Of a stretch of DNA of 64,000 nucleotides, positions 45,717 through 60,453 are shown piece after piece. This stretch comes from Streptomyces sp. NBC_00335. Lineage in GTDB: Bacteria > Actinomycetota > Actinomycetes > Streptomycetales > Streptomycetaceae. The notes under the pieces were generated by a model. It was not told where the DNA came from. It saw only the letters and a list, made by a program, of their open reading frames with translations, and did no database searches. Each line of letters begins with the position of its first letter. Within the stretch, counting starts at the first letter, position 1. The stretch lies in contig NZ_CP108006.1 in NCBI RefSeq assembly GCF_036127095.1, positions 1 through 64,000 on the forward strand. Reading direction: 5' to 3'. The translations under genes were made by a program, and so were the position numbers.

Positions 45717-46946
45717 ATGGAACCTCCCCTCCCCCACCTCGGCCCCCCTGCCGCTCCCGGGCCCCTGCACGGAGTGACCGTCCTGGACTGCGCCACCCTG
45801 TTCGCGGGGCCCCTGGCCGCCACGATCCTGGGCGACTACGGCGCCGACGTCGTCAAGGTCGAACACCCTGTCCGGCCGGACCCGTCGCGCACCCACGGTC
45901 CGTCCAAGGACGGCGAGGGCCTGTGGTGGAAGATGCTCGGCCGGAACAAGCACACGGTCACCCTGGACCTGAGCCGGTCCGCCGGAGCCGCGCTCCTGCT
46001 CCGGCTCGCCGCCCAGGCCGATGTCCTGATCGAGAACTTCCGGCCCGGAACCCTGGAGAAGTGGGGCCTGGGACCGGCGGACCTGCACCGCGCCAACCCC
46101 AGGCTCGTCGTCGCCCGCGTCACCGGATTCGGCCAGTACGGGCCCTACGCCCGCAGGCCCGGCTTCGGCACCCTCGCGGAGTCCATGAGCGGCTTCGCCG
46201 CGCTGACGGGCGAGCCCGGCGGCCCGCCCACCCTGCCGCCCTTCGGGCTGGCCGACGGCGTGGCCGCGCTGGTCGCCGCCTCGGCCGTGCAGACCGCGCT
46301 CTACCACCGCGACGTGCACGGCGGTCCCGGGCAGGTCGTCGACCTCGCGATCATCGAGCCGCTGCTGACCCTGCTGGGCCCGCAGCCCACCGCCTACGAC
46401 CAGCTCGGCACGGTCCCGCCGCGCACGGGAAACCGGTCGGTGAACAACGCCCCGCGCAACATCTACCCGACCCGGGACGGCTCCTGGGTGGCCGTCAGCA
46501 CCTCGGCGCAGTCCGTAGCCGAGCGGGTCATGAAACTCGTAGGGCACCCGGAGGTCACCGACGAGCCCTGGTTCGCCGGGGGTGCCGGTCGCGCCGCGCA
46601 CGCGGATCTGCTCGACGCCCAGGTCGGGGAATGGATCGCGGCCCGCGACCGGGACACCGTGATCTCCGCCTTCGAGGAGGCCGAGGCCGCGATCTCCCCC
46701 GTGTACGGCATCGCCGACATCTTCGCGGATCCGCAGTACCAGGCCCTGGACTCGCTGACGACCGTGGACGACCCGGTGCTGGGGCCGCTCCGCATGCAGA
46801 ACGTCCTCTTCCGGCTCTCCGCCACGCCCGGCGCCATCCGCTGGACCGGCCGCGCGCACGGCAGCGACACCCGGGCGCTCTTCGGCGCGCGGCTCGGCCT
46901 GTCGCCGGCGGAGCTCGACGAACTCGCCGCAGACCGCACGATCTGA
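45717..46946 (+). CDS. Family III CoA-transferase
   Basis: 409 residues from ATG 45717 (GTG 45708 possible). CaiB/BaiF family: HGVTVLDCATLFAGPLAATI, VKVEHPVRPD, the catalytic Asp region in LGRNKHTVTLDLSR, LIENFRPGTLEKWGL and VVARVTGFGQYGPYARRPGF. Moves CoA between acyl-CoA and a free acid, here probably onto the acid made by this gene cluster. First gene of a plus-strand run with a cyclase and MmgE/PrpD. A second paralogue lies at 58245-59438. Confidence 0.9.
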   Translation: MEPPLPHLGPPAAPGPLHGVTVLDCATLFAGPLAATILGDYGADVVKVEHPVRPDPSRTHGPSKDGEGLWWKMLGRNKHTVTLDLSRSAGAALLLRLAAQADVLIENFRPGTLEKWGLGPADLHRANPRLVVARVTGFGQYGPYARRPGFGTLAESMSGFAALTGEPGGPPTLPPFGLADGVAALVAASAVQTALYHRDVHGGPGQVVDLAIIEPLLTLLGPQPTAYDQLGTVPPRTGNRSVNNAPRNIYPTRDGSWVAVSTSAQSVAERVMKLVGHPEVTDEPWFAGGAGRAAHADLLDAQVGEWIAARDRDTVISAFEEAEAAISPVYGIADIFADPQYQALDSLTTVDDPVLGPLRMQNVLFRLSATPGAIRWTGRAHGSDTRALFGARLGLSPAELDELAADRTI

Positions 46947-46964: not shown

Positions 46965-47810
46965 ATGAACAGCGTCCACGGATACCGGGGAAGTCCGGTG
47001 TCCCTCGCCGGCGCTCCCGTGATCGACCTGGCCCAGCCGATGCGCCGGGGCATGCCCCAGTCGCCCAACCATCCGCCCTTCCGCATGCTCCTGGAACGCC
47101 GCCACGGCGATCACGTGCGCGGAGACGGAGGCTCCGCCGCCAACGAACTCATCGTCACCGGCGGCCACGTGGGCACCCACGTCGACGCTCTCGCACACGT
47201 CTCGCAGGACGGTCTGCTGCACGGGGGCGTCCCGGCCGAATCCGCGCAGAGCCACGAGGGCTTCTCCCGGCACGGCATCGAGGAGTTCCCGCCCTATGTG
47301 GGACGGGCCGTGTTCCTGGACATCGCCGCCGTACACGGCGTCCCGGTCCTTCCCGCCGGATACGAGATCACGGTCGCCGACCTGGAAAGGGCCCGGGACG
47401 CCGCCGGGGTGGACATCGAGGCGGGTGGCGCGTTGCTGCTGGGGACGGGCTGGTCCGGGCACTGGGAGGACCCGCGGGTCTTCACCGGACAGGAGGGCGG
47501 AGCGCCGGGGCCCGGCCCCGCGGCCGGGGCATGGATCGCGGAGCGGGGAGTACGGGTGACCGGCGGCGAGACGATCGCCTTCGAGCACATTCCACCGGGG
47601 CGGGGCCACGCCGAACTGCCCGTCCACCGAACGCTGCTGGTCGAGGCGGGCATCCACATCGTCGAAACGATGCGGCTCACCGGGCTCGCCGCGGCGCGAC
47701 GGGCGGAGTTCCTGCTGATGCTCGCGCCCCTGCCGATCGTAGGGGCCACCGGATCCCCCGTACGTCCGCTCGCCGTCCTGTACGACGCCGACGGGGCGGG
47801 CCCGGCATGA
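46965..47810 (+). CDS. Cyclase/kynurenine-formamidase-like hydrolase
   Basis: 281 residues. Contains the family's metal site GGHVGTHVDALAHVSQDG (HxGTHxD with a following His) and VIDLAQPMRRGMPQSPNHPP near the start, and FEHIPPGRGHAELPVHRTLL later. KynB-like metal-dependent hydrolases cleave formamides, lactones or cyclic amides. Its stop overlaps the MmgE/PrpD start (ATGA). Confidence 0.85.
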   Translation: MNSVHGYRGSPVSLAGAPVIDLAQPMRRGMPQSPNHPPFRMLLERRHGDHVRGDGGSAANELIVTGGHVGTHVDALAHVSQDGLLHGGVPAESAQSHEGFSRHGIEEFPPYVGRAVFLDIAAVHGVPVLPAGYEITVADLERARDAAGVDIEAGGALLLGTGWSGHWEDPRVFTGQEGGAPGPGPAAGAWIAERGVRVTGGETIAFEHIPPGRGHAELPVHRTLLVEAGIHIVETMRLTGLAAARRAEFLLMLAPLPIVGATGSPVRPLAVLYDADGAGPA

Positions 47811-49270
47811 GCGACGAAGGGTACGCGGCGCGCCTGGCCGCCTTCGCGGCGACAGCCGCAGCGGACGGGGTACCTCAGGAGATCGCGGAGGACGCGGCCG
47901 CGCGCACGCTGGACTGCCTCGGCAACAGCCTGGGGGCGCTCGGCGCGCACACCGGCGAGATCTCCGGCGCCTCGCCCCAGTCGGCGGCGCTGGCCATGGC
48001 CCGCGCGGCGGGCGGAGTCGCGGAGGCCACCGCCGTGGGCAGCGGCCGCCGGATGCCGGCCGACCGGGCCGCCCTCGTCAACGGCACGCTCGCGCACGCC
48101 CTCGACTTCGACGACACCCACCTCCCGTCCGTTCTGCATCCCACGGCCGCCGTCCTGCCCGCCGCGCTGGCCGTCGCCGAAGCCACGGGCGCCACGGGGG
48201 CATCGCTGCTGACCGCGCTCGCGGTCGGCGGCGAGGTCTGCGTCCGCCTGGGCATGGCCTCCTACGATCCGGCCCTGCGGAACTCGGTGTTCTTCGAGAA
48301 GGGTCTGCACGCCACCTCCATCTGCGGCACCGTCGGCGCCGCCGTCGCCGCAGGGCTGCTGTACGGGCTGAGCGCGGCCGAGCTGGCGCACGCCATCGGC
48401 ATCGCCTGCTCCATGGGCGCCGGGGTCATCGAGGCGAACCGCACCGGCGGCAGTGTCAAGCGGCTGCATTGCGGATGGGCCGCCCACTCCGGTGTGTGCG
48501 CGGCCCAGTTCGCGGCGGGCGGGGTCACCGGACCGCCGACGGTGCTGGAAGGACGCTTCGGCTTCCTGACGGCATTCCTGGACGAGCGGTGGACCGCGGA
48601 GCCCCTGGTGGCCGGCCTGGAGGAGATGAGTACGGTCGCGAACTGGCAATACGCGCGCTCCGTGTTCAAGCCGTACCCCTCCAACCACTTCACCCACCCG
48701 GGGATCGACTGCGCGCTGGCCCTTCGCCGCGCCGGGCTCCGGGCCGAGGACGTGGTGAGCGCCGAGCTGGGGGTGGCCGCCGCGCCCCGGCGCACCATCG
48801 GCGAGCCGCACGCCGAGAAGGTGCACCCCCGTACGCCCTACCACGCCAAGTTCTCGGGGCCCTACACGGTGGCGGCAGCGCTGCTGTCCGACGCGGAAGG
48901 CGACGGGCCCGGGCTGCGGCACGCGGACTTCTCCGCGGGTGCGTTCACCGATCCGCGCCGCATCGCCTTGGCGGAGCGGATCCAGGTCGTGGTCGACGCC
49001 CGGTGCGACGCGGAGTTCCCGCAGGCTTTCAGCGCGGTGCTGCGGGTGACGACGCGCGGTGGGCGGGTCGTGCAGTCACGGGTCGGCAGTTCTCTGGGCG
49101 GGCCGGGTGCGCCGTTGTCCCAGGCCCAGCTGGCCGGCAAGTTCCGGCTGAACGCGGAGCCGGTCCTGGGACGGGACCGTGCGGACCGGGTGGTCCAGGC
49201 GGTCCGCGCCCTTCCCGCGGCGCCGCCCGGCGCCGCTGCCGCGCTGCTGGGTCTGACCCGTATCGACTGA
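47807..49270 (+). CDS. MmgE/PrpD family protein
   Basis: 487 residues, translationally coupled to the cyclase gene. Family features: DCLGNSLGALGAHTG, ALVNGTLAHALDFDDTHLPS (the HxxDFDD active-site region), HPTAAVLPAALA, GLHATSICGTVGAAVAAGLL, and FKPYPSNHFTHPGIDCALAL. The family includes 2-methylcitrate dehydratase and cis-aconitate decarboxylase. With CoA-transferase and a CitE-like lyase next door it likely handles a branched tricarboxylic or unsaturated dicarboxylic acid. Confidence 0.85.
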   Translation: MSDEGYAARLAAFAATAAADGVPQEIAEDAAARTLDCLGNSLGALGAHTGEISGASPQSAALAMARAAGGVAEATAVGSGRRMPADRAALVNGTLAHALDFDDTHLPSVLHPTAAVLPAALAVAEATGATGASLLTALAVGGEVCVRLGMASYDPALRNSVFFEKGLHATSICGTVGAAVAAGLLYGLSAAELAHAIGIACSMGAGVIEANRTGGSVKRLHCGWAAHSGVCAAQFAAGGVTGPPTVLEGRFGFLTAFLDERWTAEPLVAGLEEMSTVANWQYARSVFKPYPSNHFTHPGIDCALALRRAGLRAEDVVSAELGVAAAPRRTIGEPHAEKVHPRTPYHAKFSGPYTVAAALLSDAEGDGPGLRHADFSAGAFTDPRRIALAERIQVVVDARCDAEFPQAFSAVLRVTTRGGRVVQSRVGSSLGGPGAPLSQAQLAGKFRLNAEPVLGRDRADRVVQAVRALPAAPPGAAAALLGLTRID

Positions 49271-49291: not shown

Positions 49292-50227
49292 TCAGCGGCG
49301 CGCGGCGAGCACCCGGCGGGCGGCCCGGACGACGGCCTCGTCCACCATCCGGCCGTCGGGTCCGGTGATGACGCCCGAACCGTCCCGCGCCGCCTCGTCG
49401 AAGTGCTCCAGCAAGGTCCGCGCGGCGGCGAGTTCTTCAGTGCTGGGAGTGAAGACCTCGTGCACGGTGGCCAGTTGGCGCGGGTGGATGCAGGCCCGGG
49501 AGCGGTAGCCGAGCCGGCGCAGGGCGCGGGTGGTCCGGGCGAGGGCGTCCAGGTCGGTGAAGTCGGTGCTGACGGGTCCGACCGGCGGCAGCAGGCCGGC
49601 GGCGGCCGAGGCGAGGAGGACGTCCGTGCGGATGGAGACGAGGGCCGCGGCGGCCGGGTCCGCCGGGTCCGCCGGGTCCGCCGGATCGGTTGCCTCGATG
49701 CCCAGTTCGGCGCACAGGTCGGCCTCGCCCAGCTGCAGGTGGCGTACCCGGGGCGCTTGCGCGATCAGCCGTACGTCGAGCACGGCCGAGGCGGTCTCCA
49801 GCAACGGCGCCAGGGCGAAGGCGCCCGGGGCGAGCCCCTGGCGCTCCTCCGCCGCGGTCAGGAGGGAGTGCTGCGCCTCGATCTCCTCGGCGCCCGAGCA
49901 TTTGGCGAGGCAGAAGCCGGTCACCGCGGGCGTGGCGAGGCGTGCGGTTTCCTCGCGCCCCCGCTCGCCTGGGTTGACACGAATCCACATCTGCGTCCTC
50001 GCGTCCGGGCCGTGCGGCGCCGCTTCCAGGGCAGCGGCTTCCGCCTCGTCGAGCCAGTGCCGCACCAGTGTCAGCGCCCGCTCCTTCCCCGCCGCGGGAA
50101 CGGCGTCCTCCAGGTCGACGATCAGTGCGTCGGCGCCTCGGGTGAGGGCCTTGGCGAGCATCTCGGGACGGTCACCCGGAACGTAGAGGAAGGAGCGGGG
50201 TGCTGCCGGGAGGGGGTTCGCGGTCAT
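49292..50227 (-). CDS. CitE-like CoA-ester lyase
   Basis: 311 residues, HpcH/HpaI-CitE family: RSFLYVPGDRPEMLAKALTR, ADALIVDLEDAVPAAGK, MWIRVNPGERGREETARL, then the LGEADLCAELGI metal-binding loop and RSRACIHPRQLATVHEVF at the end. Such enzymes split citramalyl-, malyl- or citryl-CoA. A (GAT/CCG)-rich repeat gives DPADPADPA in the loop after the metal site, an unusual insertion. The promoter carries a minus-strand copy of the GAAAC motif at 50325-50349. Confidence 0.85.
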   Translation of the reverse strand: MTANPLPAAPRSFLYVPGDRPEMLAKALTRGADALIVDLEDAVPAAGKERALTLVRHWLDEAEAAALEAAPHGPDARTQMWIRVNPGERGREETARLATPAVTGFCLAKCSGAEEIEAQHSLLTAAEERQGLAPGAFALAPLLETASAVLDVRLIAQAPRVRHLQLGEADLCAELGIEATDPADPADPADPAAAALVSIRTDVLLASAAAGLLPPVGPVSTDFTDLDALARTTRALRRLGYRSRACIHPRQLATVHEVFTPSTEELAAARTLLEHFDEAARDGSGVITGPDGRMVDEAVVRAARRVLAARR

Positions 50228-50324
50228 GGTGCGACGCTCCGATCGGCGGGGGAATCAGCTTTGGGACAAGGGAGTTGGGGGCTTGCTCACCCTAGGAGTG
50301 GGACCATCCACGGTCAATGGATCG

Positions 50325-50349
50325 GTTTCGCTGTGGGATCCGACGTTTC
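50325..50349 (-). promoter_or_regulatory. GAAAC-N15-GAAAC site C1
   Basis: Minus strand: GAAAC, GTCGGATCCCACAGC, GAAAC. Both pentamers exact, spacer diverged. About 98 bases upstream of the CitE-like gene. Confidence 0.45.
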
Positions 50350-50449
50350 ACGAACGGTGCAACGGATCGGAAACGCACCTTTTACCGGGGTGCGCGTCCG
50401 GACCCTTGACACGCCGAGTGGGCGACGGGCTGTATATGGGGACGCAAGC

Positions 50450-50474
50450 GAAACAAAGTTCCGTACAGGGAAAC
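50450..50474 (+). promoter_or_regulatory. GAAAC-N15-GAAAC site C2
   Basis: GAAAC, AAAGTTCCGTACAGG, GAAAC, 33 bases before the WxL-like gene. Its first 13 bases are identical to those of site A. This ties the surface operon to the catabolic regulon. Confidence 0.65.
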
Positions 50475-50507
50475 CCATCGGATCCCTTCGAGAGGAACCC
50501 ACGGCTC

Positions 50508-52124
50508 ATGCACCCTCAACTCGCAAGATCGACCCGGACCCGGACCCGGGGCGGTGCGACGCTCGCCGCACTCGTGGTCGCGGCGTCCGGCTCGCTGGTC
50601 CTCGCCGGTTCACCCGCCCACGCGGGCAGCGCGCCCGTGACGTACGACTGCGTCTTCAGTTCCTCCCATTCGCTCTTCACCACCACCGCCACCCTCACCG
50701 CCCCGGCCACCGCGGCGGCGGGTGAGAGCGTGGACGTCAAACTCAGCCTCGCCGACAAGGGCCCGGCCAACGGTCCCGTCGCGCTGCCCGCCAACAGCGT
50801 CGTCCCCTCGGCCAAGATCCTCGTCTCCGGGCAGGCACCGCTCACGCTCACCGCTCCGGCCTCGAACCCGGCGATCCCGGCCAAGGGCGAGATCCCCATA
50901 CCCGATCTGACCGGCAAACTCACCGTCGCACAACCCGGCACGGTGACGCTGACACCCGACCAGCTGACGCTCGACATCCCGAGCTACGGCCTGTCCCTCG
51001 CCTGCACCCTGCAGGGCACCGCAACCGCCCTGCACACGCTGACCGTCACCCCGGCCGCGGGCAGCACCAACGCGGCCGTGACCGGCATCTCGGGCCGCCC
51101 GGCGTCGGACACCACCGGCGCCCGCCCCGGTGACGTCCTCACCATGGCCGGCGCGGGCTGGGATCCCGCGGCGCCGATCGGCACGGTCGAACTGTGCACC
51201 CTGGCCGGTACCGGATGCTCCGGCGCCGACCTCACGCCCGACCTGCGCGTCGGCTCCGACGGAAAACTGGCCGGCACGGTGACGGTCGGCGCCACGGCCG
51301 CCCCCGGGCCGCACCGCCTGAAGATCAGTCAGGGGTCGGCCTCCGCCTCCCTCGTCATCGGCGTCCTGGGCGCCCGTACGCTCCAGGTCACGCCCGGCGG
51401 CGGCGGACCGGGTACGAGTGCCACGGTCAACGGGGCCAGCTTCGACCCGGGCGACGAGGTCAGCGTCGTCACCCTGGACAAGGACGGCCGGCCGGTCGGC
51501 GGGGCGGGCCTCACCGCCCCCGTCGACGCGCGGGGCAACTTCACCGCCACGCTCGTACCGGCCGTGGGAGCCGTGAAGATCGTGGCGACGGAGAAGGACG
51601 GCGGCGACACCACCGAGACCGCGTGGGCGGGCAGTTCCAACGGGGGCGGCTCCGACCAGACGCTGAAGGTGGTCGTCAGCGGCGGCGCGCTCACCATGTC
51701 GGCCGAGCCCGGCGAAGTGATCCTCTCCCCGGTCACCGTGGACGGCACCGCCCACGACTCCACGGGAAGTGTGCGGGCCCTGGAGGTCAAGGACTTCCGG
51801 GGCACCACCGAAGGCTGGTCCCTCGTCGGAACGGTCACCGACTTCCGCAACTCCGCCGGAGCCGCGATTCCCGCCTCGCAGCTGTCCTGGACCCCGCAGT
51901 GCGCGGTCCACCCCGGGTCCGCCGCCGCCTCCGCCGTCGTCCCGGGCAGCGCCGGGCCGCTCAGCTCGACGACCGCGGCACCGCTGTGCAGCCAGGCGGC
52001 CGGCGCCGATCCCACCTCTGTCACGGGCGGGCACTTCGACGCGGGCGCGGGCCTCAGCCTGCGCGTCCCGGGGATCGTCCAGAGAGGCGAGTACGCGGCC
52101 GTACTGCGCCTGACCCTGTCCTGA
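50508..52124 (+). CDS. Secreted WxL-like surface protein
   Basis: 538 residues, ATG 50508. Signal peptide (ALVVAASGSLVLAGSPAHA). About 45-170: a beta-rich domain with one cysteine pair starting VTYDCVFSSSHSLFTTTATL. About 180-400: two Ig/IPT-like repeats, each opening PGDVLTMAGAGWDP or GGPGTSATVNGASFDPGDE. About 410-538: a C-terminal domain with VKDFRGTTEGWSLVGTVTDF (W437-S-L439), a CxxH cysteine pair region, and the ending GEYAAVLRLTLS. That layout matches WxL cell-surface domains (first WxL motif kept, second YxxxLTWxL reduced). WxL domains bind peptidoglycan without covalent linkage. First and separately transcribed-looking gene of the operon. Confidence 0.7.
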   Translation: MHPQLARSTRTRTRGGATLAALVVAASGSLVLAGSPAHAGSAPVTYDCVFSSSHSLFTTTATLTAPATAAAGESVDVKLSLADKGPANGPVALPANSVVPSAKILVSGQAPLTLTAPASNPAIPAKGEIPIPDLTGKLTVAQPGTVTLTPDQLTLDIPSYGLSLACTLQGTATALHTLTVTPAAGSTNAAVTGISGRPASDTTGARPGDVLTMAGAGWDPAAPIGTVELCTLAGTGCSGADLTPDLRVGSDGKLAGTVTVGATAAPGPHRLKISQGSASASLVIGVLGARTLQVTPGGGGPGTSATVNGASFDPGDEVSVVTLDKDGRPVGGAGLTAPVDARGNFTATLVPAVGAVKIVATEKDGGDTTETAWAGSSNGGGSDQTLKVVVSGGALTMSAEPGEVILSPVTVDGTAHDSTGSVRALEVKDFRGTTEGWSLVGTVTDFRNSAGAAIPASQLSWTPQCAVHPGSAAASAVVPGSAGPLSSTTAAPLCSQAAGADPTSVTGGHFDAGAGLSLRVPGIVQRGEYAAVLRLTLS

Positions 52125-52130
52125 CCCTGT

Positions 52131-52175
52131 CCCGCACGTCGCGCACGTCCTGCACGTCCCGCACGTCCCGCACGT
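52131..52175. repeat. 9-bp tandem repeat
   Basis: Five head-to-tail copies of a 9-base unit (CCCGCACGT with one or two changes), just after the WxL-like gene stop. It lies before the 52197 hairpin in the untranslated gap of the surface operon. Confidence 0.8.
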
Positions 52176-52196
52176 CCTGACCCTCCTTCGAGCAAC

Positions 52197-52233
52197 GTCC
52201 CAGGTGGCGAGCTCCCGGCTCGCCACCTGGGAC
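52197..52233 (+). terminator. 16-bp intercistronic hairpin
   Basis: GTCCCAGGTGGCGAGC and its perfect complement around TCCCG, ending 15 bases before the next start codon (52249). A terminator-strength hairpin inside an operon suggests partial termination or mRNA stabilisation, giving more of the first (WxL-like) protein than of the rest. Confidence 0.7.
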
Positions 52234-52248
52234 CGGCAAGAGCGGAAC

Positions 52249-53292
52249 ATGACAACACTACGCAGTGACCGACCGGCCGACCGGGCTCGCCGAGCAGCCG
52301 CCCGGGCCCTCGTCATCACGGCCTTCCGTGCCGTAGCGGCCTGCCTGGCCGCCCTGTCCGCCCTCGCGGTGGCAGGCGCGTCGCCCGCCACCGCCTCGGA
52401 AGCGGGGAGCTCCGGCACGGGGTCCTGGTCGGTGCAACCGGCGGGAACGGCCGGCCGGCCCGCGTTCGTCATGGACTCCGCGCCCGGCTCCGTAGTCAAG
52501 GACGCCGTCCGCGTCAGCAACCTGTCCGACGCCCCCCTCTCCTTCCAGGTGTACGGCTCGGACGCCTACAACACGCCCCGCGACGGCGCCCTCGCCTACC
52601 GCCAGGCCGGCGAGGCCCAGAGCGGCATCGGCGCCTGGATCACCCTCGGTACCAACGCACTCGTCATTCCGCCGGGCCGTGCCGCGGACATCCCCTTCAC
52701 CGTGAACGTCCCGGGTGACGTCACCCCCGGCAGTCACATCGGCGGGATCGTCGCCCTCAACAACGCCGTCGAGGAAGCCGGCGGCGCGTCCGGCGTCGAC
52801 GTGGGCATCCAGCGGGCCATAGCCGTCCGCATCCAGCTGACGGTCGAGGGACCGGTGACACCCGGACTCGCCGTCCGGTCGGTCCGGGTACACCACCACC
52901 CGTCGGGCGTCCCCTTCGCCGATGCGCGCACCACCCTCACCTACAAGGTCGTCAACACCGGCAATACGGCGCTGCGCCCCACCGTCTCGCCACGGCTCCA
53001 GGGACTCTTCGGTCTGCGGCACAGCTCCTTCGCCGAACGCACGCTCCCTCTGCTGCTGCCGGGGCAGAGTGCCGAGCTCAGCACCGACTGGCCGGGCGCC
53101 CCCGGCCTCGACTACCTGACCGCCACCGTGCGCGTCAGCGCGCCCGGCATGCCCGCGACGTCCGCGCAGAGCGGCCGGGTCGCGTTGTCCTGGCCCACGC
53201 TCGGGTCCGTCGGCGCCCTTCTCGCCGTCCTCGCGGTCGCCTTGGGCTGGATCCGCCGCGCGAAGCCCGGCCTCACCGGGAGGCCTCTATGA
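52249..53292 (+). CDS. DUF916-type WxL-interacting protein
   Basis: 347 residues from ATG 52249. Signal peptide about 1-50. Residues ~58-165 fit the DUF916 peptidoglycan-binding domain of WxL-interacting proteins: WSVQPAGTAGRPAFVMDSAP, VVKDAVRVSNLSDAPLSFQV, YGSDAYNTPRDGALAY and TPGSHIGGIVALNN. Then a second Ig-like domain (about 190-300) and a C-terminal membrane helix (VGALLAVLAVALGWIRR). In Firmicutes such proteins (CscA) dock WxL proteins on the cell surface. Overlaps the next gene by 4 bases. Confidence 0.75.
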   Translation: MTTLRSDRPADRARRAAARALVITAFRAVAACLAALSALAVAGASPATASEAGSSGTGSWSVQPAGTAGRPAFVMDSAPGSVVKDAVRVSNLSDAPLSFQVYGSDAYNTPRDGALAYRQAGEAQSGIGAWITLGTNALVIPPGRAADIPFTVNVPGDVTPGSHIGGIVALNNAVEEAGGASGVDVGIQRAIAVRIQLTVEGPVTPGLAVRSVRVHHHPSGVPFADARTTLTYKVVNTGNTALRPTVSPRLQGLFGLRHSSFAERTLPLLLPGQSAELSTDWPGAPGLDYLTATVRVSAPGMPATSAQSGRVALSWPTLGSVGALLAVLAVALGWIRRAKPGLTGRPL

Positions 53293-54374
53293 CCCCCCGT
53301 CCGGCGTGGGCCTTGCGCTGCACACTGGCCGGCGTCCTCCTCCTGCTCGTGGCAGCGGTCCTGCCGGTCGTGGGGGGCGCCCCCGCGACTGCCGTGTCCG
53401 GGCCGAGCATCACCGTGGAAGCCGTCCAGGTCTCCCCCGGCCGGCCGGTCCGAGCCGTCGGCTCGGGCTGGCAGCCGGGCACGACCGTCCAGGTGGAGAT
53501 CTGCGGAGGCGGGGCGCTGCGCGGCAGTGCCGACTGCGACACCCTGCGGGCGGCGGTTTCCCTGGTGGCCGCCGACGGCACCTTCCGCCTGACCCTCATC
53601 GCGGGCGTGCCTCCCCGCGCGTGTCCCTGTCTGCTGCGGGCGATGGCCGGCCAGGGCGGAGCGCGCGCCCAGACCCCGATCGGCGTTTCCGGCGCCCCCG
53701 AAGGGGCGCCGCCCGGCGCGCCCGCCCCAGCCGTCCGGGTCGATGTCGTCGAGGCCGCACTGTCCGGTGGGCCCCGGTTCGCCGAGCTCTTCGGCGCACC
53801 GGCCCACCGGACCTTGACGGTTACCCTGCGCAACCCCGGTGACCAGCCGCTGGGACGAGCGCCGCTGATCATCGCCTGGGGGCCCGGTGGCACCGCTGAC
53901 CTCCCGGTGGGCACACCGCTGACGGCGGAGATTCCGGCGCGCGCGGAGCGGAGCTACCGGATCCCCGTCCGGCTTCCGGCCGCCGCGTTCGGGCGCTACT
54001 CCGTCGGCGGGCGCTACGCCTCGGCGGAGTTCTCCGTCGCCACCGACGTGTACCCCTGGGGGCTGCTCGGCCTCGCCTTCCTCGCAGTCCTGCTGACCGT
54101 GTTCACGGCTGCCGTAGCCGTCCGCCGCGGCGTCGAGCGCCGCCGGACCCGGCGGCCGGTGCCGGCGCCCGCGGTGCCGCTTCCCGCCTTCGTCCCGGTG
54201 GACAGCCTCTCCGGTGTACTCGCTGACGGCGCGGGCGATGGTGAACACCCCGGGCTGGTGAACACCCGTGCGCTGGTCCGCGAGGTGGCCGGGGAGCCCG
54301 CACTCGTGAACTTTCCCGCGCTGCGGGCGCTCGCCGCCGCGCTGCGGCCCTCACCTCCAGGAGGAGAGCGATGA
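53289..54374 (+). CDS. Membrane-anchored Ig-like surface protein
   Basis: 361 residues. Signal peptide (LAGVLLLLVAAVLPVVGGAP). An extracytoplasmic domain follows (ITVEAVQVSPGRPVRAVGSG, then VQVEICGGGALRGSADCDTL with cysteine pairs) resembling the neocarzinostatin-like fold, then a CARDB-like strand region. A membrane helix (about 258-280, LLGLAFLAVLLTVFTAAVA) leads to a cytoplasmic tail of ~80 residues rich in Arg/Pro then Val/Asn. Coupled by ATGA to genes on both sides. It may link the outer complex to the pseudo-ABC protein. Confidence 0.65.
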   Translation: MTPRPAWALRCTLAGVLLLLVAAVLPVVGGAPATAVSGPSITVEAVQVSPGRPVRAVGSGWQPGTTVQVEICGGGALRGSADCDTLRAAVSLVAADGTFRLTLIAGVPPRACPCLLRAMAGQGGARAQTPIGVSGAPEGAPPGAPAPAVRVDVVEAALSGGPRFAELFGAPAHRTLTVTLRNPGDQPLGRAPLIIAWGPGGTADLPVGTPLTAEIPARAERSYRIPVRLPAAAFGRYSVGGRYASAEFSVATDVYPWGLLGLAFLAVLLTVFTAAVAVRRGVERRRTRRPVPAPAVPLPAFVPVDSLSGVLADGAGDGEHPGLVNTRALVREVAGEPALVNFPALRALAAALRPSPPGGER

Positions 54375-56158
54375 TGGGCTTCCCCACCGTCACCCGCCCG
54401 CGCCCGGACCTGTACGCGGGAGCCGCCGCCGGGCTCGCCCTCGGCGTGTACGTCACGTCGGCGCCGCTGCTGGGAGGGCCCGTCGGGATGCCCGGCGAGG
54501 CCGTCCGCTACCTCCTCTTCACGGGCACGCTGCTCGCCGCCGGGACGGGCGCGGTGTTCCGGCGCCGGGGCCGCGCACGTCCGTACGGTGCCAGGTGGTC
54601 CGCGCGGTGGGCGGTGGCGGCCTGTGTCCTGGCCGCCGCCGCCCCACTGACCGGCTCGCCCATGGTGTTCGCGTCCTTGCTGGTCGTGGCCGCCGGTCTC
54701 GCTGGCGGGGCCCTGGGCCTCTACCGCCCGAACCACGCATGGCACGCGGCCTGTCTGGCGGGCGCCGGGGCAGCAGGTGCCGGGGCGGCTCGCTCGGCGC
54801 AGAGCCCGCACGTGGCCTGTGCCCTGATGTGCGCGCTCGCCGCGCTGCTGCTGATTCCGGCCTGCCGGCCGGCCGCGCCGGACGACGCCGGACAGTCTCC
54901 CCCGCTTCGTGGACCCGCCGGCGCCGTGGGGGCGGCCGTGTTCGGTTCCCTGTTCGCCGTGTCGAGCCTCGTGGTCTTCCGGTGGGAACTGCTGGGCGCC
55001 GCGGGCGTCCGGCCGCTCGCCCACGCGGCGCTGCTCGCGGCGGCGCTGACGTCCGCCCTCGCGGTGGCGGGCCGACGTGGACCGGCCGGCGGAACCGCCC
55101 TTCGTACGCTGCTGTTACCGGCGGGACTGACGGCAGCCGTCACGGCGTGCGCGAGCGCGGCCCGGCCCGGGCAGCTCACCCTCGCGCTGGCGGCGGTGCT
55201 CACCTGCGGGGCCGCCGCGGCCGTCGGCGGTCGAGCACCGGTGACGCGGTCCGCGGGCCTTCCCATCGCCTCGCTGCTCGGCGGGGCTGCCGCGATGACC
55301 GCAATCGCCTTTTCCGGCCGGCTCCTGGGTGGCCCGGACACACTGACCGCCATCGGCATGGCGCCGGTCATGGCGGCTCTGCTGCCGTGGGTCCGCCGTG
55401 GGCGCCGACGAGGGGCCGCGCCGGACGAGGACGACCGCAGGAGCGAGCGCCATGCCCTCACCGCACGCGGCCTCGTCGTACGCGGGGCCGGAAGGGCGCC
55501 GGTACGAGGTCTCGACCTGGCCCTGCCTCCGGGCGCAATCACGTACCTGACCGACGCCCTCCCCGGCCGACGGGCGGGCTCCGTACTGGCGGTGCTGGCC
55601 GGCGTGCGCAAGGCCGACGGCGGGACCTGGCGGCTCCGCGGCCATGACGTCTCCCGGGTCGGTCCCGAGGCCCGGTGGGACTTGGGGCTCTCCGCGTTCG
55701 TCGACCCGGCCGATGCCACCCGGCCGGGCGCACTGCCTCCAGGGCACCCCGCGGGCTCCGTGACGGACGCGGTGGCGGCCGCCACCGGTCGTCTGGGCCA
55801 CGAGCGGGCGGCGGAGCTGACGGCGGCGGCGCACGCGGCCTTCCCGTTCCTCTTGGCCAAGGGACCGGCCTCCTGCGCGAGCCTCGGCACCGACGAGCGG
55901 TGTCTGCTCGGGCTCGCCCAGACGTTCATGACCCAGCCGGCCGTGCTCCTCCTGGACCTGACCGGGGCCGGCTGCGAACAGCTCGCCACCGATCCCGCGG
56001 TCACGGCCGTACTGGGCCACATCACCGACCGGGGAACAGCGGTCCTGGTCGCCGCCCCTGCCTCACAGCCCGTCCCCGGGCAGCGGACCATCGTGCTCCG
56101 TGTGCCCGCCGGCTCCGGAACGACCTTCTTGCGACGGAACAGAAAGGCCAGCCCGTGA
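54371..56158 (+). CDS. Membrane protein fused to pseudo-ABC ATPase
   Basis: 595 residues. The first ~350 contain nine to ten membrane helices (for example AVAACVLAAAAPLTGSPMVF, LFAVSSLVVFRWELLGAAGV). After a charged linker, residues ~365-590 align with an ABC ATPase in order but with the key residues lost. The P-loop position reads LPGRRAGSVLAVLAG with no GK[ST], the signature is LGTDERCLLGLAQTFMTQPA, and the Walker B AVLLLDLTGAG lacks the catalytic Glu. It probably cannot hydrolyse ATP. Not a standard exporter: the membrane and nucleotide-like parts are in one half-sized chain. Role in the surface complex unknown. Confidence 0.7.
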   Translation: MMGFPTVTRPRPDLYAGAAAGLALGVYVTSAPLLGGPVGMPGEAVRYLLFTGTLLAAGTGAVFRRRGRARPYGARWSARWAVAACVLAAAAPLTGSPMVFASLLVVAAGLAGGALGLYRPNHAWHAACLAGAGAAGAGAARSAQSPHVACALMCALAALLLIPACRPAAPDDAGQSPPLRGPAGAVGAAVFGSLFAVSSLVVFRWELLGAAGVRPLAHAALLAAALTSALAVAGRRGPAGGTALRTLLLPAGLTAAVTACASAARPGQLTLALAAVLTCGAAAAVGGRAPVTRSAGLPIASLLGGAAAMTAIAFSGRLLGGPDTLTAIGMAPVMAALLPWVRRGRRRGAAPDEDDRRSERHALTARGLVVRGAGRAPVRGLDLALPPGAITYLTDALPGRRAGSVLAVLAGVRKADGGTWRLRGHDVSRVGPEARWDLGLSAFVDPADATRPGALPPGHPAGSVTDAVAAATGRLGHERAAELTAAAHAAFPFLLAKGPASCASLGTDERCLLGLAQTFMTQPAVLLLDLTGAGCEQLATDPAVTAVLGHITDRGTAVLVAAPASQPVPGQRTIVLRVPAGSGTTFLRRNRKASP

Positions 56159-56853
56159 AGACCTCGACGAAGAGCCGGAACCGCCGGGTGGCCCTCGCGG
56201 CAACCGCGGCGCTCACCCTTCCCGGATGGAGCCCTGCCGCGGCCACGGCAGCCGCAGCCGATGCCGATCCGGTCGCGACGGTACGGGTCTCCGCCGCGAC
56301 CGGACTGACCGAGGGCCGGCAGATCACCGTCGAAGGCACGGGGTTTCGCGCCGGACTGACCTCGGTCGCCGTCGGGCTGTGCAAGAAGGGCTACACCGGC
56401 AACAAGGACTGTGACCTGGGCGGCGGAGCACAGCTGGTGACCATCGGACCCGACGGTTCGCTGCCGCGGGTCACCCTCACCGTGCACACCCGGGTCGCGG
56501 GTGTCGACTGCCGCACCACACCCTGTGTGGTCGGCGTCGCGCCGCTGCCTTCCGGAACCCCGCCCGCGCTGATCGCGGCCAACAGCGTCCAGATCGCTGT
56601 GGGTTTCGAGGGCGGGACCGTCCAGGGCGAGCCCTCCGCCACGGGTCGGGCCGCGCCCGCGGCGTCCGCCGCCTCCCCCGGCGGCACACACGTCGACGCC
56701 TGGAGCGGGCCGTCGGCCCCGGTGTGGTCGCTGTCCCTCGGCCTGGCCGTCGTCAGCCTCGTACTCGGTGCGCTCTCCCTCGTCCAGGGCCGCCGGGGGG
56801 CGGCTCCTGGTGAACCCCCGCAACCCCCGTCCACTGCAGGAGGAAACGAATGA
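56155..56853 (+). CDS. Neocarzinostatin-like anchored protein
   Basis: 232 residues from GTG 56155 (GTGA overlap with the previous stop). Signal peptide, then a neocarzinostatin-type Ig fold: TVRVSAATGLTEGRQITVEG, VAVGLCKKGYTGNKDCDLGG and DCRTTPCVVGVAPLP, with the two disulfide pairs expected. A Ser/Ala-rich stem leads to a membrane helix (SLGLAVVSLVLGALSLV) and a short tail. No sortase motif. Stays in the membrane. Overlaps the next gene by 4 bases. Confidence 0.7.
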   Translation: MKTSTKSRNRRVALAATAALTLPGWSPAAATAAAADADPVATVRVSAATGLTEGRQITVEGTGFRAGLTSVAVGLCKKGYTGNKDCDLGGGAQLVTIGPDGSLPRVTLTVHTRVAGVDCRTTPCVVGVAPLPSGTPPALIAANSVQIAVGFEGGTVQGEPSATGRAAPAASAASPGGTHVDAWSGPSAPVWSLSLGLAVVSLVLGALSLVQGRRGAAPGEPPQPPSTAGGNE

Positions 56854-57512
56854 CATCACTACGGAGCATCCGCCGCGCGGGCACGCTGGCCGCGGTCACG
56901 GCCCTGGTCGCCATGTCGGCGGGGCCGGCCGCCGCTGCCGGAACGCTGACGGTCGGCAAGTCGTCCGGGCTCGCCGTGGGAGACAAGGTCACGGTGTCGG
57001 CCAAGGGGCTGAGCCCGAACCAGGGCTTCGCGCCGATCGGTCTGTGCAAGCCGAAGCCGGCGGGTCCAACGGACTGCGAGACCTCGCCCGATTCCTCGGT
57101 CATCGGAAAGACCGACGCGTCCGGGGTGTGGCACAGCGCGGCGAACGGCGCGGACAGCGTCCAGATCACGGTCAAGGCAACGGCCGGTGGGGCGAATTGC
57201 GCGGCCAAGGCGGGCAACTGCGTCATCGCGGTGTCCATCTCCGCGACGAAGGAACTGGTCGAAGTTCCCCTGACCCTCTCGGCCGGTGGTTCCGGCCCGA
57301 GCAGCCCGGCGCCCTCGAGCCCGGCGCCCACCGCGGCTGGTGGAACCACCACGGGCGGTGGAACCTCCACGGCGTCCGGGGGTGGCACGGCGGGTTCGCT
57401 GCCGCAGACCGGATCCACCGACGGCCTGCCGGTGGCCGCCCTGCTGGGCGGCACGCTGTTCCTGTTCGGCGGCTGCGCACTGGTGTTGTTGCGTCGCGGC
57501 AGACGCGTCTGA
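56850..57512 (+). CDS. LPQTG sortase-anchored neocarzinostatin-like protein
   Basis: 220 residues. Signal peptide ending AGPAAAA; an Ig-like domain of the neocarzinostatin kind (LTVGKSSGLAVGDKVTVSAK, APIGLCKPKPAGPTDCETSP, two disulfide pairs). A low-complexity Gly/Ser/Thr/Pro stalk (about 145-180) follows, then LPQTG at 184-188, a hydrophobic helix (LLGGTLFLFGGCALVLL) and the terminal RRGRRV. This is a complete sortase E/F-type signal, so the protein is covalently linked to peptidoglycan. Last gene of the surface operon; no sortase gene is in the window. Confidence 0.8.
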   Translation: MTSLRSIRRAGTLAAVTALVAMSAGPAAAAGTLTVGKSSGLAVGDKVTVSAKGLSPNQGFAPIGLCKPKPAGPTDCETSPDSSVIGKTDASGVWHSAANGADSVQITVKATAGGANCAAKAGNCVIAVSISATKELVEVPLTLSAGGSGPSSPAPSSPAPTAAGGTTTGGGTSTASGGGTAGSLPQTGSTDGLPVAALLGGTLFLFGGCALVLLRRGRRV

Positions 57513-57583: not shown

Positions 57584-58243
57584 TCAGGGCCTTCCGGGCC
57601 GCTGGTGGACCGGGTCACCCAGGCGCCGGCAGGCCGACACCACGTCGACCACGTCGGCGTACTTGGAGTCGAGGTCGAAGAGATTGCTCTCGTGGGGGCC
57701 GGGGTCGCGGTCGGCCACCGCGTCGCGGACGACGATGGGGCGCAGCCCGTGCTGGAGCGCGTCCAGGGCCGTGGCCCGTACGCAGCCGCTGGTGGAGAAG
57801 CCGCCGATGACGACGGTGTCCACGCCGAGGACCTTCAGGACGTCGGACAGCCTGGTGCCGAAGAAGGCACTCGGGTAGTGCTTGTGGATCACCACCTCGC
57901 CCGGTTCGGGGGCGCAGTGCGGCGTGAAGGCCGCGTGCGGACTGCCCGCGCGGAAGGCGTCGAGGCTGGGCACCTTGCGGGCGAAGTGCGGTGCGTCGGC
58001 GCCCGGTTCGGCGTCGTAGTGGACAGCGGTGAAGACGACGGGGAACTGTGATCGGCGGGCGGCCCGGGCGAGGTGCGCCATGGCGTGCAGGGCCCGCTGC
58101 GCCGTGTCCAGGTAGAGGCGGCTGCCGGGGTCCGCGTAGGCCTGGACCGGGTCGACGAGGAGGACGGCCGGGTGTTCGCCCCAGCCGATGCGGCAGCCGA
58201 AGCCGGCGGCCTCGTAGTCATCGGCGAGGGGCCTGCCGGCCAT
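57584..58243 (-). CDS. Isochorismatase/N-carbamoylsarcosine amidase family
   Basis: 219 residues. Cysteine-hydrolase triad: Asp in AVLLVDPVQAYADPG, Lys in VVIHKHYPSAFFGT, Cys in GGFSTSGCVRATALDALQHG. The SGCVRATALDA form matches N-carbamoylsarcosine amidase and maleamate-type amidases more than true isochorismatases. The start lies 1 base after the stop of the CoA-transferase gene, so the two are coupled. It would remove ammonia or a carbamoyl group from an opened ring. Confidence 0.85.
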   Translation of the reverse strand: MAGRPLADDYEAAGFGCRIGWGEHPAVLLVDPVQAYADPGSRLYLDTAQRALHAMAHLARAARRSQFPVVFTAVHYDAEPGADAPHFARKVPSLDAFRAGSPHAAFTPHCAPEPGEVVIHKHYPSAFFGTRLSDVLKVLGVDTVVIGGFSTSGCVRATALDALQHGLRPIVVRDAVADRDPGPHESNLFDLDSKYADVVDVVSACRRLGDPVHQRPGRP

Positions 58244-58244
58244 G

Positions 58245-59438
58245 TCAGATCACTCCGTCCGCGGCGAGCTTGTCGCGTTCCGCAGCGGTCAGACCGAGGA
58301 GTTCGCCGTAGATGTCGTCGTTGTGGGCGCCGAGTTCCGGGCCCACCCAGCGGATGCTGCCGGGGGTGGCGGAGAGCTTCGGGACGACGTTCTGCATGGG
58401 GATCTCGCCGAAGTCGGGGTGCGGGAGGCGGACGATGGCGTTGCGGGCGGCGAAGTGCGGGTCGGTGAGCATGTCGGAGGCGGTGAAGGTCTTGCCCGCC
58501 GGCACTCCCGCCGCGTGGAGGGCGCCGAGCAGGGTGTGCGCGTCGTGGCCCGCGGTCCAGGTGGTGATGAGGTCGTCGAGCTCGCCCTGGTGCGCTCCGC
58601 GCGCGGTGTGGGTGGCGTACTTGGGGTCTTCCGCGAGGTCGGTGCGGTCCATCACTTCGGTGAGGCGACGGAAGACGGTGTCCTGGTTGGCGGCGATGAG
58701 GACGGCGGCTCCGTCGGCGGTGGGATAGACGTTGCTGGGGGCGACGTTGGGGAGGACGGGGCCGGTGCGTTCGCGCTGGTAGCCGCCGACCTCCCATTCG
58801 GGGAGGAGGGACTCCATGAAGGCGAGGACGGCTTCGTAGAGGGCGGAGTCGACGATCTGCCCGCTTCCGGTGCGCGTCCGGGCGTGCAGCGCCATGACCG
58901 CGCCGTAGGCGGCCATGGTGCCGGCGAGGGCGTCTCCGAGCGAAATGCCTGCGCGGGACGGGGGGCGGTCCGGTTCACCGGTGATGTGGCGGATGCCGCC
59001 CATCGCTTCACCGATGGAACCGAAGCCGGCCCGGGGCGCGTAGGGGCCGTTCTGTCCGTAGCCGGTGACGCGGACCATGACCAGGCCGGGGTTGATGGCG
59101 CTGAGCTCGTCGAAGCCGAGGCCCCACCGTTCGAGGGTTCCGGGGCGGAAGTTCTCGACGAGTACGTCGGCGTGGGCCACGAGTCGGCGGACGAGGTCCT
59201 GCCCCTCCTCCCGGCGGAGGTTGCAGGTGACGGACTTCTTGTTGCGTGCGACGACGGGCCACCAGAGGGACTTGCCGTAGGGGCGCTCGCGTCCCCATTG
59301 ACGCATGGGGTCGCCTCGACCGGGGTCTTCGAGCTTGATGATCTCGGCGCCGTGGTCGCCGAGGAGTTGGCCGCAGAAGGGACCGGCAAGCAGGGTGCCG
59401 GTCTCGATGACACGGATGTCGGAGAGGGGTCCAGTCAT
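58245..59438 (-). CDS. Family III CoA-transferase (second copy)
   Basis: 397 residues. SDIRVIETGTLLAGPFCGQL, IIKLEDPGRGDPMRQWGRER, ARNKKSVTCNLRREEGQDL, LVENFRPGTLERWGLGFDEL, VMVRVTGYGQNGPYAPRAGF. Similar to the enzyme at 45717-46946 but clearly diverged, so it probably acts on a different acid. Divergent from the HMG-CoA-lyase-like gene with the motif copy D between them. Confidence 0.9.
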   Translation of the reverse strand: MTGPLSDIRVIETGTLLAGPFCGQLLGDHGAEIIKLEDPGRGDPMRQWGRERPYGKSLWWPVVARNKKSVTCNLRREEGQDLVRRLVAHADVLVENFRPGTLERWGLGFDELSAINPGLVMVRVTGYGQNGPYAPRAGFGSIGEAMGGIRHITGEPDRPPSRAGISLGDALAGTMAAYGAVMALHARTRTGSGQIVDSALYEAVLAFMESLLPEWEVGGYQRERTGPVLPNVAPSNVYPTADGAAVLIAANQDTVFRRLTEVMDRTDLAEDPKYATHTARGAHQGELDDLITTWTAGHDAHTLLGALHAAGVPAGKTFTASDMLTDPHFAARNAIVRLPHPDFGEIPMQNVVPKLSATPGSIRWVGPELGAHNDDIYGELLGLTAAERDKLAADGVI

Positions 59439-59493: not shown

Positions 59494-60453
59494 ATGCGTT
59501 TCATGGACAACCCCTTGGCGGCAGTGCCGCTCACCGGACCCGGCGTGGTGGAAGTCGCCCCGCGTGACGGGCTGCAGAACGAGGCGCGCGCCTTGTCCCC
59601 GGCGCAGCGCGTGGCCCTGATCGAGCGGGCCGTCGCCGCCGGCGCGCGGCGGGTGGAGGCCGTGGCCTTCGTACACCCGGACCGGGTACCGCAGATGGCG
59701 GGGGCGGAGGAGGTGATGAGCCTGCTGCGGCGCCCTGACGGTGTGCGCTACAGCGGCCTGGTGCTCAACGCACGCGGTATGGACCGGGCCTGCGCGAGCG
59801 GCGTGGACGAGGTCAACTACGTGGTGGTGGCGAGTGATTCCTTCTCACGGCGCAACCAAGGCGTGGGAACGCGCGAGGCGTTGGCCGCGTGGGAGGGCAT
59901 CGCCTCCCGCGCCCACACGGAGGGGATCGGCCGCTCGCTGACCATCGCGGCCGCCTTCGGCTGCCCCTTCGAGGGAGAGACCCCGCAGGCCACGGTGGCC
60001 GAACTGGCCCGGATCGGCGTGGAGACGGGAGCCGAGGAGATCGTCCTCGCCGACACCATCGGCGTGGGTGCCCCCGACGCCGTGACCCGGCTTCTCGACG
60101 CGGTGCGCGAGCAGAACCCCGGAGTGGCCCTGCGCTGCCACTTCCACAACACGCGCAATACCGGCTACGCGAACGCGGTCGCCGCCGCCGCGGCCGGCGC
60201 GGCCTGGCTCGATTCCTCGCTCGGCGGGATCGGCGGCTGCCCGTTCGCGCCCGCCGCCACCGGAAACATCGCGACCGAGGACCTAGTCTACCTGCTGCGC
60301 CGGATGGGCCTGGAACCAGGCATCGACCTGGAGTCGGCCGCGGCGACGGGCACCTGGCTGGGGACCGTCCTCGGCATCGAAGTACCGGCTCTCCTGGGCC
60401 GGGCCGGGCCGTTCCCCGCGTCAGGGCGTACGGGCGACCGGGGGGAGGAGTAG
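59494..60453 (+). CDS. HMG-CoA lyase-like enzyme
   Basis: 319 residues from ATG 59494 (ATG 59503 possible). TIM-barrel lyase: VVEVAPRDGLQNEARAL with the catalytic Arg-Asp, AFGCPFEGETP, the metal-binding HFHNTRNTGYANA, and the C-terminal loop LGGIGGCPFAPAATGNIATE with its essential cysteine. Full set for hydroxymethylglutaryl-CoA lyase or a related branched hydroxyacyl-CoA. Products are normally acetyl-CoA plus a keto acid. Followed closely by a membrane-protein gene. Confidence 0.9.
   Translation: MRFMDNPLAAVPLTGPGVVEVAPRDGLQNEARALSPAQRVALIERAVAAGARRVEAVAFVHPDRVPQMAGAEEVMSLLRRPDGVRYSGLVLNARGMDRACASGVDEVNYVVVASDSFSRRNQGVGTREALAAWEGIASRAHTEGIGRSLTIAAAFGCPFEGETPQATVAELARIGVETGAEEIVLADTIGVGAPDAVTRLLDAVREQNPGVALRCHFHNTRNTGYANAVAAAAAGAAWLDSSLGGIGGCPFAPAATGNIATEDLVYLLRRMGLEPGIDLESAAATGTWLGTVLGIEVPALLGRAGPFPASGRTGDRGEE

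Follow-up and report, generated by a model that had tools for sequence, protein, structure and literature searches.

A WxL-type surface operon with a pseudo-ATPase membrane protein in an RCCR-bearing catabolic island of Streptomyces and its possible role in substrate capture

Six genes that encode surface and membrane proteins, here named g1 to g6, form an operon in a stretch of 64,000 nucleotides from Streptomyces sp. NBC_00335 (positions 1 to 64,000 of contig NZ_CP108006.1, referred to as the window). An initial annotation, made from the letters alone, described a surface complex of the WxL type that includes an LPxTG protein and a degenerate ABC component and likely binds or degrades an external substrate. 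Such a complex, which probably handles an external substrate, is supported by the present analysis; the coordinates, reading frames and order of the genes were annotated correctly, and genes 2 to 6 overlap by 4 bases each. What the initial picture did not include was the setting: the operon lies inside a catabolic island that bears a homologue of red chlorophyll catabolite reductase (RCCR), and this is the main clue to its function. The features of the operon are as follows.

50508..52124, forward strand: g1, secreted protein of 538 residues with a string of beta-sandwich domains and a C-terminal WxL-like domain (residues ~385-538)
52197..52233, forward strand: perfect 17-bp hairpin with no T tail in the g1-g2 gap (fold z=-3.81 for the gap)
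52249..53292, forward strand: g2, WxL-interacting protein (WxLIP) with signal peptide, PGBD and C-terminal membrane helix (PF06030, 28.3 bits; cut-off 27.3)
53289..54374, forward strand: g3, secreted neocarzinostatin/Ig-like protein with one membrane helix and a cytoplasmic tail of ~80 residues
54371..56158, forward strand: g4, predicted 12-helix membrane protein with a fused LivF-type pseudo-ATPase; the helices are from a low-confidence AlphaFold2 (AF2) model
55466..56110, forward strand: pseudo-nucleotide-binding domain (pseudo-NBD) of g4, residues 366-580, with an ABC profile match and LivF-like scores
56155..56853, forward strand: g5, GTG start, neocarzinostatin-fold domain and C-terminal membrane helix (GPS-CTERM-like)
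56850..57512, forward strand: g6, neocarzinostatin-fold domain and LPQTG sorting signal

The C-terminus of g1, annotated as WxL-like from its W437-S-L, matches the Pfam WxL family PF13731 with E=1.2e-4 and 22.6 bits, just below the curated cut-off of 25 (25.4 bits with frame neighbours), and all 19 members of the g1 alignment match this family at E<=0.01. In published WxL domains, the first motif is marked by an Asp at W-8, an Arg at W-6 and a G-T turn (PMC9772566). The same pattern is found in g1, where D429, R431, G432, T434, G436, W437 and L439 are invariant in 19/19 sequences. The likeness is to the first motif only, as none of the 19 has a Trp in the second Trp-x-Leu motif, and the C-terminal strand reads LTL, ITL or ISL. 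The structure model of g1 gave mostly generic Ig-like matches, with no WxL structure among those listed, and a search with the A2 profile gave no solved chain at E<=1; these results neither support nor exclude the fold. As for g2, its annotation as a DUF916-type, membrane-anchored WxL-interacting protein is borne out by PF06030 (E=1.9e-6, slightly above the cut-off given in the list) and by a hydrophobic segment followed by RR near residues 316-336, as read from the sequence. No HBD/DUF3324 domain was found in g2 by Pfam at E<=10. The motif NQIDKxxxYFDLK, which is described near the N-terminus of WxLIP proteins (PMC10599100), is not present in g2; by eye, the site reads GRPAFVMDSAPG.

The two last proteins match PF00960 (Neocarzinostat) above its cut-off of 25, g5 with 6.9e-13 and 49.0 bits, and g6 with 1.2e-7 and 32.1 bits. 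As annotated, g5 is thus neocarzinostatin-like and anchored by its C-terminal helix, for which the NCBIfam GPS-CTERM model NF040681 gives 23.1 bits, below the cut-off of 28; g6 indeed ends in an LPQTG sorting signal (LPXTG_anchor of NCBIfam, 20.4 bits, cut-off 15.9), to which its neocarzinostatin fold can be added. For g3, which had been called Ig-like and anchored, the membrane helix stands, and the likeness to neocarzinostatin or Ig domains is weak (PF00960 at 0.13; chromo_anti of NCBIfam at 3.9e-6, far below its cut-off). Relatives of g3 adjoin WxLIP genes in other loci. NCBIfam names the PF00960-type family a chromoprotein, and in neocarzinostatin an enediyne chromophore is held in a cleft. 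No enediyne synthase was noticed among the island genes read, no search directed at enediynes having been made, and a role of g5 and g6 in enediyne resistance was set aside because the annotated genes around them look catabolic.

The fourth protein has no Pfam family of its own, and NCBIfam gives weak matches to several ABC families. Its profile finds solved ABC ATPases, the best being 1ji0, which we take to be LivF-type (E=8.2e-8, residues 366-566). The Walker A (P-loop) Lys, the Walker B Glu, the LSGGQ-type signature and the Q-loop Gln are absent from 24/24 distinct g4 sequences, including two at ~34-48% identity to that of the window. The claim of a membrane protein fused to an inactive ABC ATPase is confirmed by this homology together with the loss of motifs. 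The missing His of the H-loop was dropped as evidence of inactivity, as intact LivF relatives also carry Gln at that position and its loss is uninformative. In a comparison with ten hand-picked ABC proteins, the NBD scored 48-64 bits with six LivF-like proteins, 36 and 23 with two LivG, and 22 and 14 with the others, the 22-bit protein being another ABC of the window. The ABC part of g4 thus appears to be specifically LivF-like, which refines the annotated degenerate ABC: its inactivity stands, and an intact MFS-LivF fusion adjoins a WxLIP gene in another family (see below). The AF2 model of g4 has 12 helices and a mean pLDDT of 47 (low confidence), and because of this value its Foldseek matches to ABC exporters were not used.

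The loss of the motifs could mean that g4 is a decaying transporter relic and that the operon is losing function, and the same might be read from the absence of LivK and LivHMG from the Streptomyces locus and of g1-g3 from the island of another Streptomyces genome, G112. The reading frame, however, is open over its whole length in the 24 sequences used (P0020, a short g4 homologue of 377 aa, 58% of the query, is omitted from these and from alignment A1), and much the same residues replace the lost motifs across them. The pseudo-NBD also has invariant residues of its own in 19/19 sequences (D395, GRR 399-401, GHD 424-426 and DLT 529-531). Its mean pairwise identity is 66% against 61% in the membrane part, and its ratio of nonsynonymous to synonymous substitution (dN/dS) is 0.17-0.19 against 0.33-0.41, as estimated from two close pairs with few substitutions. 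Since it evolves more slowly than the membrane part, the domain looks like a conserved pseudo-ATPase rather than a decaying one, and we regard the decay of g4 as very improbable.

The island around the operon contains the following genes, the last two of which lie beyond the window on contig G000:C1.

44109..45554, reverse strand: allantoinase/dihydropyrimidinase-type amidohydrolase; the NCBIfam matches shown are all below their cut-offs
45774..46946, forward strand: CaiB-type CoA-transferase 1 (PF02515)
46965..47810, forward strand: cyclase (PF04199)
47807..49270, forward strand: MmgE/PrpD protein (PF03972, PF19305)
49292..50227, reverse strand: HpcH/CitE-type lyase, divergent from g1 (PF03328; best NCBIfam match RipC, below cut-off)
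57584..58243, reverse strand: isochorismatase-family amidase (PF00857)
58245..59438, reverse strand: CaiB-type CoA-transferase 2, CaiB2 (PF02515)
59494..60453, forward strand: HMG-CoA-lyase-like protein (PF00682; NF004283 above cut-off)
61158..61895, reverse strand: IclR-type regulator
62138..63481, forward strand: flavin reductase
~71129-71932 of G000:C1: RCCR homologue (PF06405)
~72989-74173 of G000:C1: Rieske oxygenase

The island extends past the end of the window with an acyl-CoA-dehydrogenase-like gene, aldehyde dehydrogenases, an FAD monooxygenase and a nitrilase-type hydrolase, and then with the RCCR homologue, a hydrolase, the Rieske oxygenase and an Amdase-type protein. The RCCR homologue matches PF06405 with 7.2e-15 and 55.3 bits (cut-off 24.9), and remotely also the solved plant RCCR (1.5e-6) and a bilin reductase (2.8e-7). 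A direct claim of chlorophyllase was dropped: two island hydrolases pass PF07224 and score higher as PETase-like (PF12740 was formerly called Chlorophyllase2). Two adjacent sortase-domain genes (PF04203) are located ~42 kb downstream of g6 (L146:4347-6005, ~99-101 kb of G000:C1).

The association of the operon with RCCR recurs within the genus. Full-length g4, g5, a close amidase orthologue and an RCCR with PF06405 are held by the same 4 of 246 Streptomyces genomes (G000, G065, G094 and G112). In the g4 search, 43 genomes matched at E<=1e-3, with 5 candidates per genome scored; 39 of these were weak, with E-values of 1e-7 or worse, and in nearly all cases covered just the ABC part, so they were excluded from the count. 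For the amidase, 14 genomes passed E<=1e-50, of which ten at 48-53% identity were not counted as orthologues; the four that were counted have at least 67% identity. RCCR is ~15-17 kb from g4 on the same contig in G000 and G112, and on a different contig in the fragmented G065 and G094. At all seven Streptomyces loci read (the window, L091, L093, L094, L095, L096 and L097; L095 is from the same genome as L092), g4-g6 are neighbours of the amidase and CaiB2, from which they are separated in L096 (G112) by one additional gene. In addition, 5 of 19 clusters of g4 homologues have a longest contig equal in size to that of an RCCR homologue, and four of the five also share the strain name. It is important to note that the genus, phylum and class samples used here are draws from larger groups, so absence outside them is not proven.

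The order of the six genes is likewise conserved in relatives. It is contiguous at four loci, namely the window and those of Streptomyces G-G2, H27-H1 and H27-S2, and in G065 and in G094 it is divided between two contigs. For sequence outside the window, genes were called with a simple script, and their start sites are approximate. One contig end of G094 (L144:3-629) has part of the g1 WxL domain joined in frame to a different open reading frame, possibly as an assembly artefact.

The linkage extends to other families. RCCR is present in 9/197 genomes of the class sample, and an RCCR cluster is recognisable, with varying completeness, in G593, G624, G055 and G573. The members of this cluster are RCCR, hydrolase, Rieske, acyl-CoA-dehydrogenase-like, aldehyde dehydrogenases, CaiB2, amidase, HMGL and Amdase, and RCCR and Rieske genes are found together across families. 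In a second family, one contig of G573 (L194) carries RCCR, hydrolase, Rieske, two genes, SDR, one gene and Amdase, and continues with LivK-type, LivHMG fusion, MFS-LivF fusion, LivK-type, WxLIP, g3, hydrolase and a small gene. The order at L195 (G626) is WxL, two small genes, g3, WxLIP, four importer genes, Amdase and SDR; it is the same at L196 (G603) as far as the MFS-LivF gene at the contig end. Surface and importer genes also occur at L054 (G055), where the stretch read begins at LivK. Matches are above cut-off for WxLIP in G573, G626 and G055, and for WxL in G626. The G055 fusion consists of MFS_1 (53.8 bits) and an intact ABC_tran (94.7 bits), whereas the LivK-type protein of this genome matches Peripla_BP_6 only below cut-off. 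The intact fusion has 12 hydrophobic segments ahead of its ABC part, and a complete fusion was found in 4 of the 12 genomes searched, always ~2 kb from a WxLIP gene. In a third family (G624, L165/L166), the stretch between two RCCR genes encodes a neocarzinostatin-LPKTG protein, an LPRTG protein, LivHMG, LivF, a protein resembling substrate-binding proteins (without a meaningful Pfam match), a sortase and a 712-residue fusion with g1- and g3-like parts. Surface proteins, a Liv-type importer or its relic and RCCR-type genes are thus linked in three families, not with all parts in each; this linkage is well supported, as are the gene content, the family assignments and the loss of the ATPase motifs.

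What recurs alongside the RCCR cluster is a set of surface proteins and an importer, and the operon is therefore most simply explained by capture and uptake of this cluster's substrate. We accordingly read it, with a probability of roughly 0.57, as a wall-spanning capture and uptake apparatus that feeds the RCCR-pathway island, with a linear tetrapyrrole as the likely substrate, which is suggested by the RCCR family. We infer the assembly of the complex, the direction of transport, the ligand and the pathway as follows. The WxL-like g1 would be held at the wall by the membrane-anchored WxLIP g2, and the neocarzinostatin/Ig-like domains of g3, g5 and the sortase-anchored g6 would bind a hydrophobic, chromophore-like substrate. 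The 12-helix part of g4 may then move the substrate or signal its binding, and its LivF-derived cytoplasmic domain may now be a non-hydrolysing docking or regulatory domain, the transporter ATPase having presumably died in the Streptomyces lineage. The substrate, a chlorophyll catabolite or a bilin, would be reduced by the RCCR homologue and then broken down by the Rieske oxygenase, the imidase/amidase, the isomerase, the CoA-transferases and the lyases. Pyrrole rings would be expected to yield maleimides and maleates, and for these the amidohydrolase, amidase, isomerase and lyase would be suitable enzymes, in the manner of the imide-amidase-maleate route. RCCR is reported to work after an oxygenase (PMC10151467), and the neighbouring Rieske gene would allow such an order here.

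A capture and uptake apparatus could also serve another substrate, such as a nitrogen-containing aromatic or heterocycle; the RCCR homologue would then be a diverged reductase that is inactive on tetrapyrroles. A gene set with hydantoinase-like, isochorismatase-like, Amdase, CoA-transferase and lyase members would be compatible with many nitrogen heterocycles, the similarity to the solved plant enzymes is remote (1.5e-6), and, among the 120 of 357 RCCR relatives that were listed, those with names are actinomycete proteins (Nocardia, Micromonospora, Nonomuraea and Actinoplanes among the genera) mostly called 'oxidoreductase' or 'hypothetical protein'. On the other hand, the described members of the RCCR/bilin-reductase family act on linear tetrapyrroles (PMC10151467), and RCCR and Rieske genes are co-located across families. 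We consider such a different substrate rather unlikely, and still the most serious of the alternatives.

Several observations weigh against a dedicated tetrapyrrole apparatus. The RCCR homologues are numerous (357 proteins), with no tested activity seen among them, and the chlorophyllase-like hydrolases of the island fit the PETase family better. No relatives of LivK or of the LivHMG permeases were found at E<=1e-4 in 1-113 kb of G000:C1, and a comparison of the g4 membrane part with the MFS part of the intact fusion by hhalign (probability 0.1) detected no homology. The families read outside Streptomyces each miss some parts: in the second family, no g5- or g6-like protein was found at E<=1e-4 beside the importer and WxLIP; the third-family genome G624 has no WxLIP match; and 3 of the 8 RCCR-bearing genomes outside Streptomyces (G588, G593 and G624) have none. 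Within the genus, G112 retains g4-g6 in the island, immediately preceded by the CitE-type lyase, and no match to g1-g3 was found in the G112 stretches read at the island, the best g2 relative of this genome being a 40% paralogue elsewhere. Finally, WxLIP matches occur in 41/60 other genomes against RCCR in 4/246 Streptomyces, and most WxLIP loci are elsewhere. The last two points bear on another explanation, in which the surface operon builds some general structure for adhesion or of the envelope and is no more than a passenger that lies in the island and moves along with it; many other sites in Streptomyces indeed have WxLIP loci that include WxL or LPxTG partners. Yet three families show such linkage, together with a Liv-type importer or its relic, and g4 and g5 are found only in the four of 246 Streptomyces genomes that have the island markers, which makes a mere passenger improbable.

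The wider distribution of these surface modules deserves attention in its own right. Relatives of g2 occur in 42/61 genomes, its own included, and 40 regions selected from their matches were fetched. Each of the 36 called WxLIP genes has, on its own strand, a neighbour from the g1, g3 or g6 family, and 28 of the 36 adjoin a WxL-motif protein (the WxLIP genes of L054, L055, L068 and L070, missed by the gene caller, are omitted from this count). There are therefore many such modules in actinomycetes, and since WxLIP is far commoner than RCCR, they must serve other partners too. In a phylum sample of 296 genomes, Pfam finds WxLIP in 28 (20 over cut-off) and WxL in 11 (5 over), several times adjacent. 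The novelty that the initial annotation saw in the actinomycete setting does not hold at the level of annotation: some Streptomyces and Catellatospora proteins are already named 'WxL domain-containing' by NCBI, over 91%, so not all, of 938 WxL sequences are in Firmicutes (PMC9772566), and a DUF916 neighbourhood of Ang-2 in Actinomycetota is already in print (PMC12537917). Among the open-access matches listed for WxL or DUF916 with Streptomyces or Actinobacteria, no title dealt with the present system; the text on the Ang-2 neighbourhood came closest among those seen.

The modules read elsewhere are diverse. The window's own genome has another WxL-WxLIP pair beside a subtilase with an I9 propeptide (L031:9464-12363). 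In six Streptomyces loci (L034, L036, L038, L039, L041 and L044), a WxL-WxLIP pair is located a few kb from a protein whose C-terminus, by eye, resembles GH1 beta-glucosidases. A third Streptomyces type (L033, L061, L064, L066, L067 and L069) consists of an LPxTG protein, WxLIP, a g3-like protein and a protein of ~380-460 residues, which has mostly a LAETG- or LAQTG-type end and no WxL motif; in L067 this set was read without its first gene, and in L064 the final gene is truncated. In an f3 genome, a different WxL/WxLIP locus (L063:14591-16303 with L063:7309-10691) adjoins a PstS-like PBP_like_2 protein (E=1.4e-44) and two further genes. WxLIP clusters of small-genome actinomycetes (L070, L198 and L068; G055, G573) have repeated secreted proteins, to which a sortase-like protein and an ABC ATPase are added in L070 and L198.

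The hairpin between g1 and g2 is a possible attenuator or processing site and could set the level of g1 above that of g2-g6. In the near-identical L091, L093 and L094, stem bases are changed yet still paired; the gap of G065 (L143) has a related GC-rich hairpin, and none is evident in that of G094 (L144). A scan for consensus promoters and terminators in window positions 50200-52300 found nothing. The gap is otherwise filled by short repeat units, CGCACGTCC-like at 52125-52185 of the window, with longer repeats at L144:2706-2999.

WxL/WxLIP clusters have been treated mainly as peptidoglycan-bound, host-binding or virulence-related proteins of Firmicutes (PMC10599100, PMC9772566), with a function that is called not clear (PMC9772566). 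Where such modules are tied to defined import and catabolic genes, as in these actinomycetes, their function becomes testable by growth and binding, and a poorly understood class of wall proteins would gain a testable job. Neocarzinostatin-fold surface proteins are proposed as receptors, g4 would be, judging from its sequence, a natural pseudo-ATPase transporter, and the island would be a candidate bacterial route for chlorophyll-derived tetrapyrroles, for which the open-access titles listed name no actinobacterial system. More boldly, and only tentatively, we can picture a pigment-eating locus of actinomycetes, in which a sortase- and WxL-anchored complex with neocarzinostatin-fold receptors passes linear tetrapyrroles to a Liv-type importer and on to RCCR-Rieske degradation, and in which a dead-ATPase permease acting as a regulator replaces the importer in one Streptomyces lineage. 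Such a locus, if real, would be the Gram-positive analogue of those in which Bacteroidetes combine receptor, importer and catabolism.

Each part of the system can be compared with a known one. The island protein shares PF06405 with RCCR and the ferredoxin-dependent bilin reductases (FDBR) and remotely matches solved members of both; unlike the described systems, its host is a heterotrophic actinomycete. With the Liv/HAAT-type ABC importers (LivK-LivHM-LivG-LivF), g4 shares a LivF-like NBD, and such an importer stands beside related surface genes in two other families; unlike them, g4 is without ATPase motifs and the Streptomyces locus without LivK and LivHMG. The four Cys of g5 align with those of the neocarzinostatin apoprotein (1nco), and the PF00960 match is above cut-off, whereas g5 and g6 are membrane- or sortase-anchored. 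The WxL and Csc cell-surface clusters of Firmicutes were reportedly set out by Siezen in 2006 (PMC1534035). Another actinomycete, Actinoplanes missouriensis, has CwpG and CwpF, candidate sortase substrates of which the first is neocarzinostatin-like and the second has an ABC-like domain; unlike the present genes, theirs are in separate loci, and their deletion left growth and sporangium formation unchanged (PMC13251363). The Firmicutes clusters share with the operon a WxL-like C-terminal domain, a WxLIP with PGBD and membrane helix, an LPxTG partner and the clustering itself (PMC10599100, PMC9772566). The parts list proposed initially from Csc clusters thus matches in WxL, WxLIP and LPxTG partner, and not in the published definition of one WxLIP with two WxL proteins. 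The operon differs from that scheme in its single WxL protein, the loss of the second WxL motif and the absence of a DUF3324 match, and adds to it a membrane pseudo-ABC protein, neocarzinostatin folds and a catabolic island.

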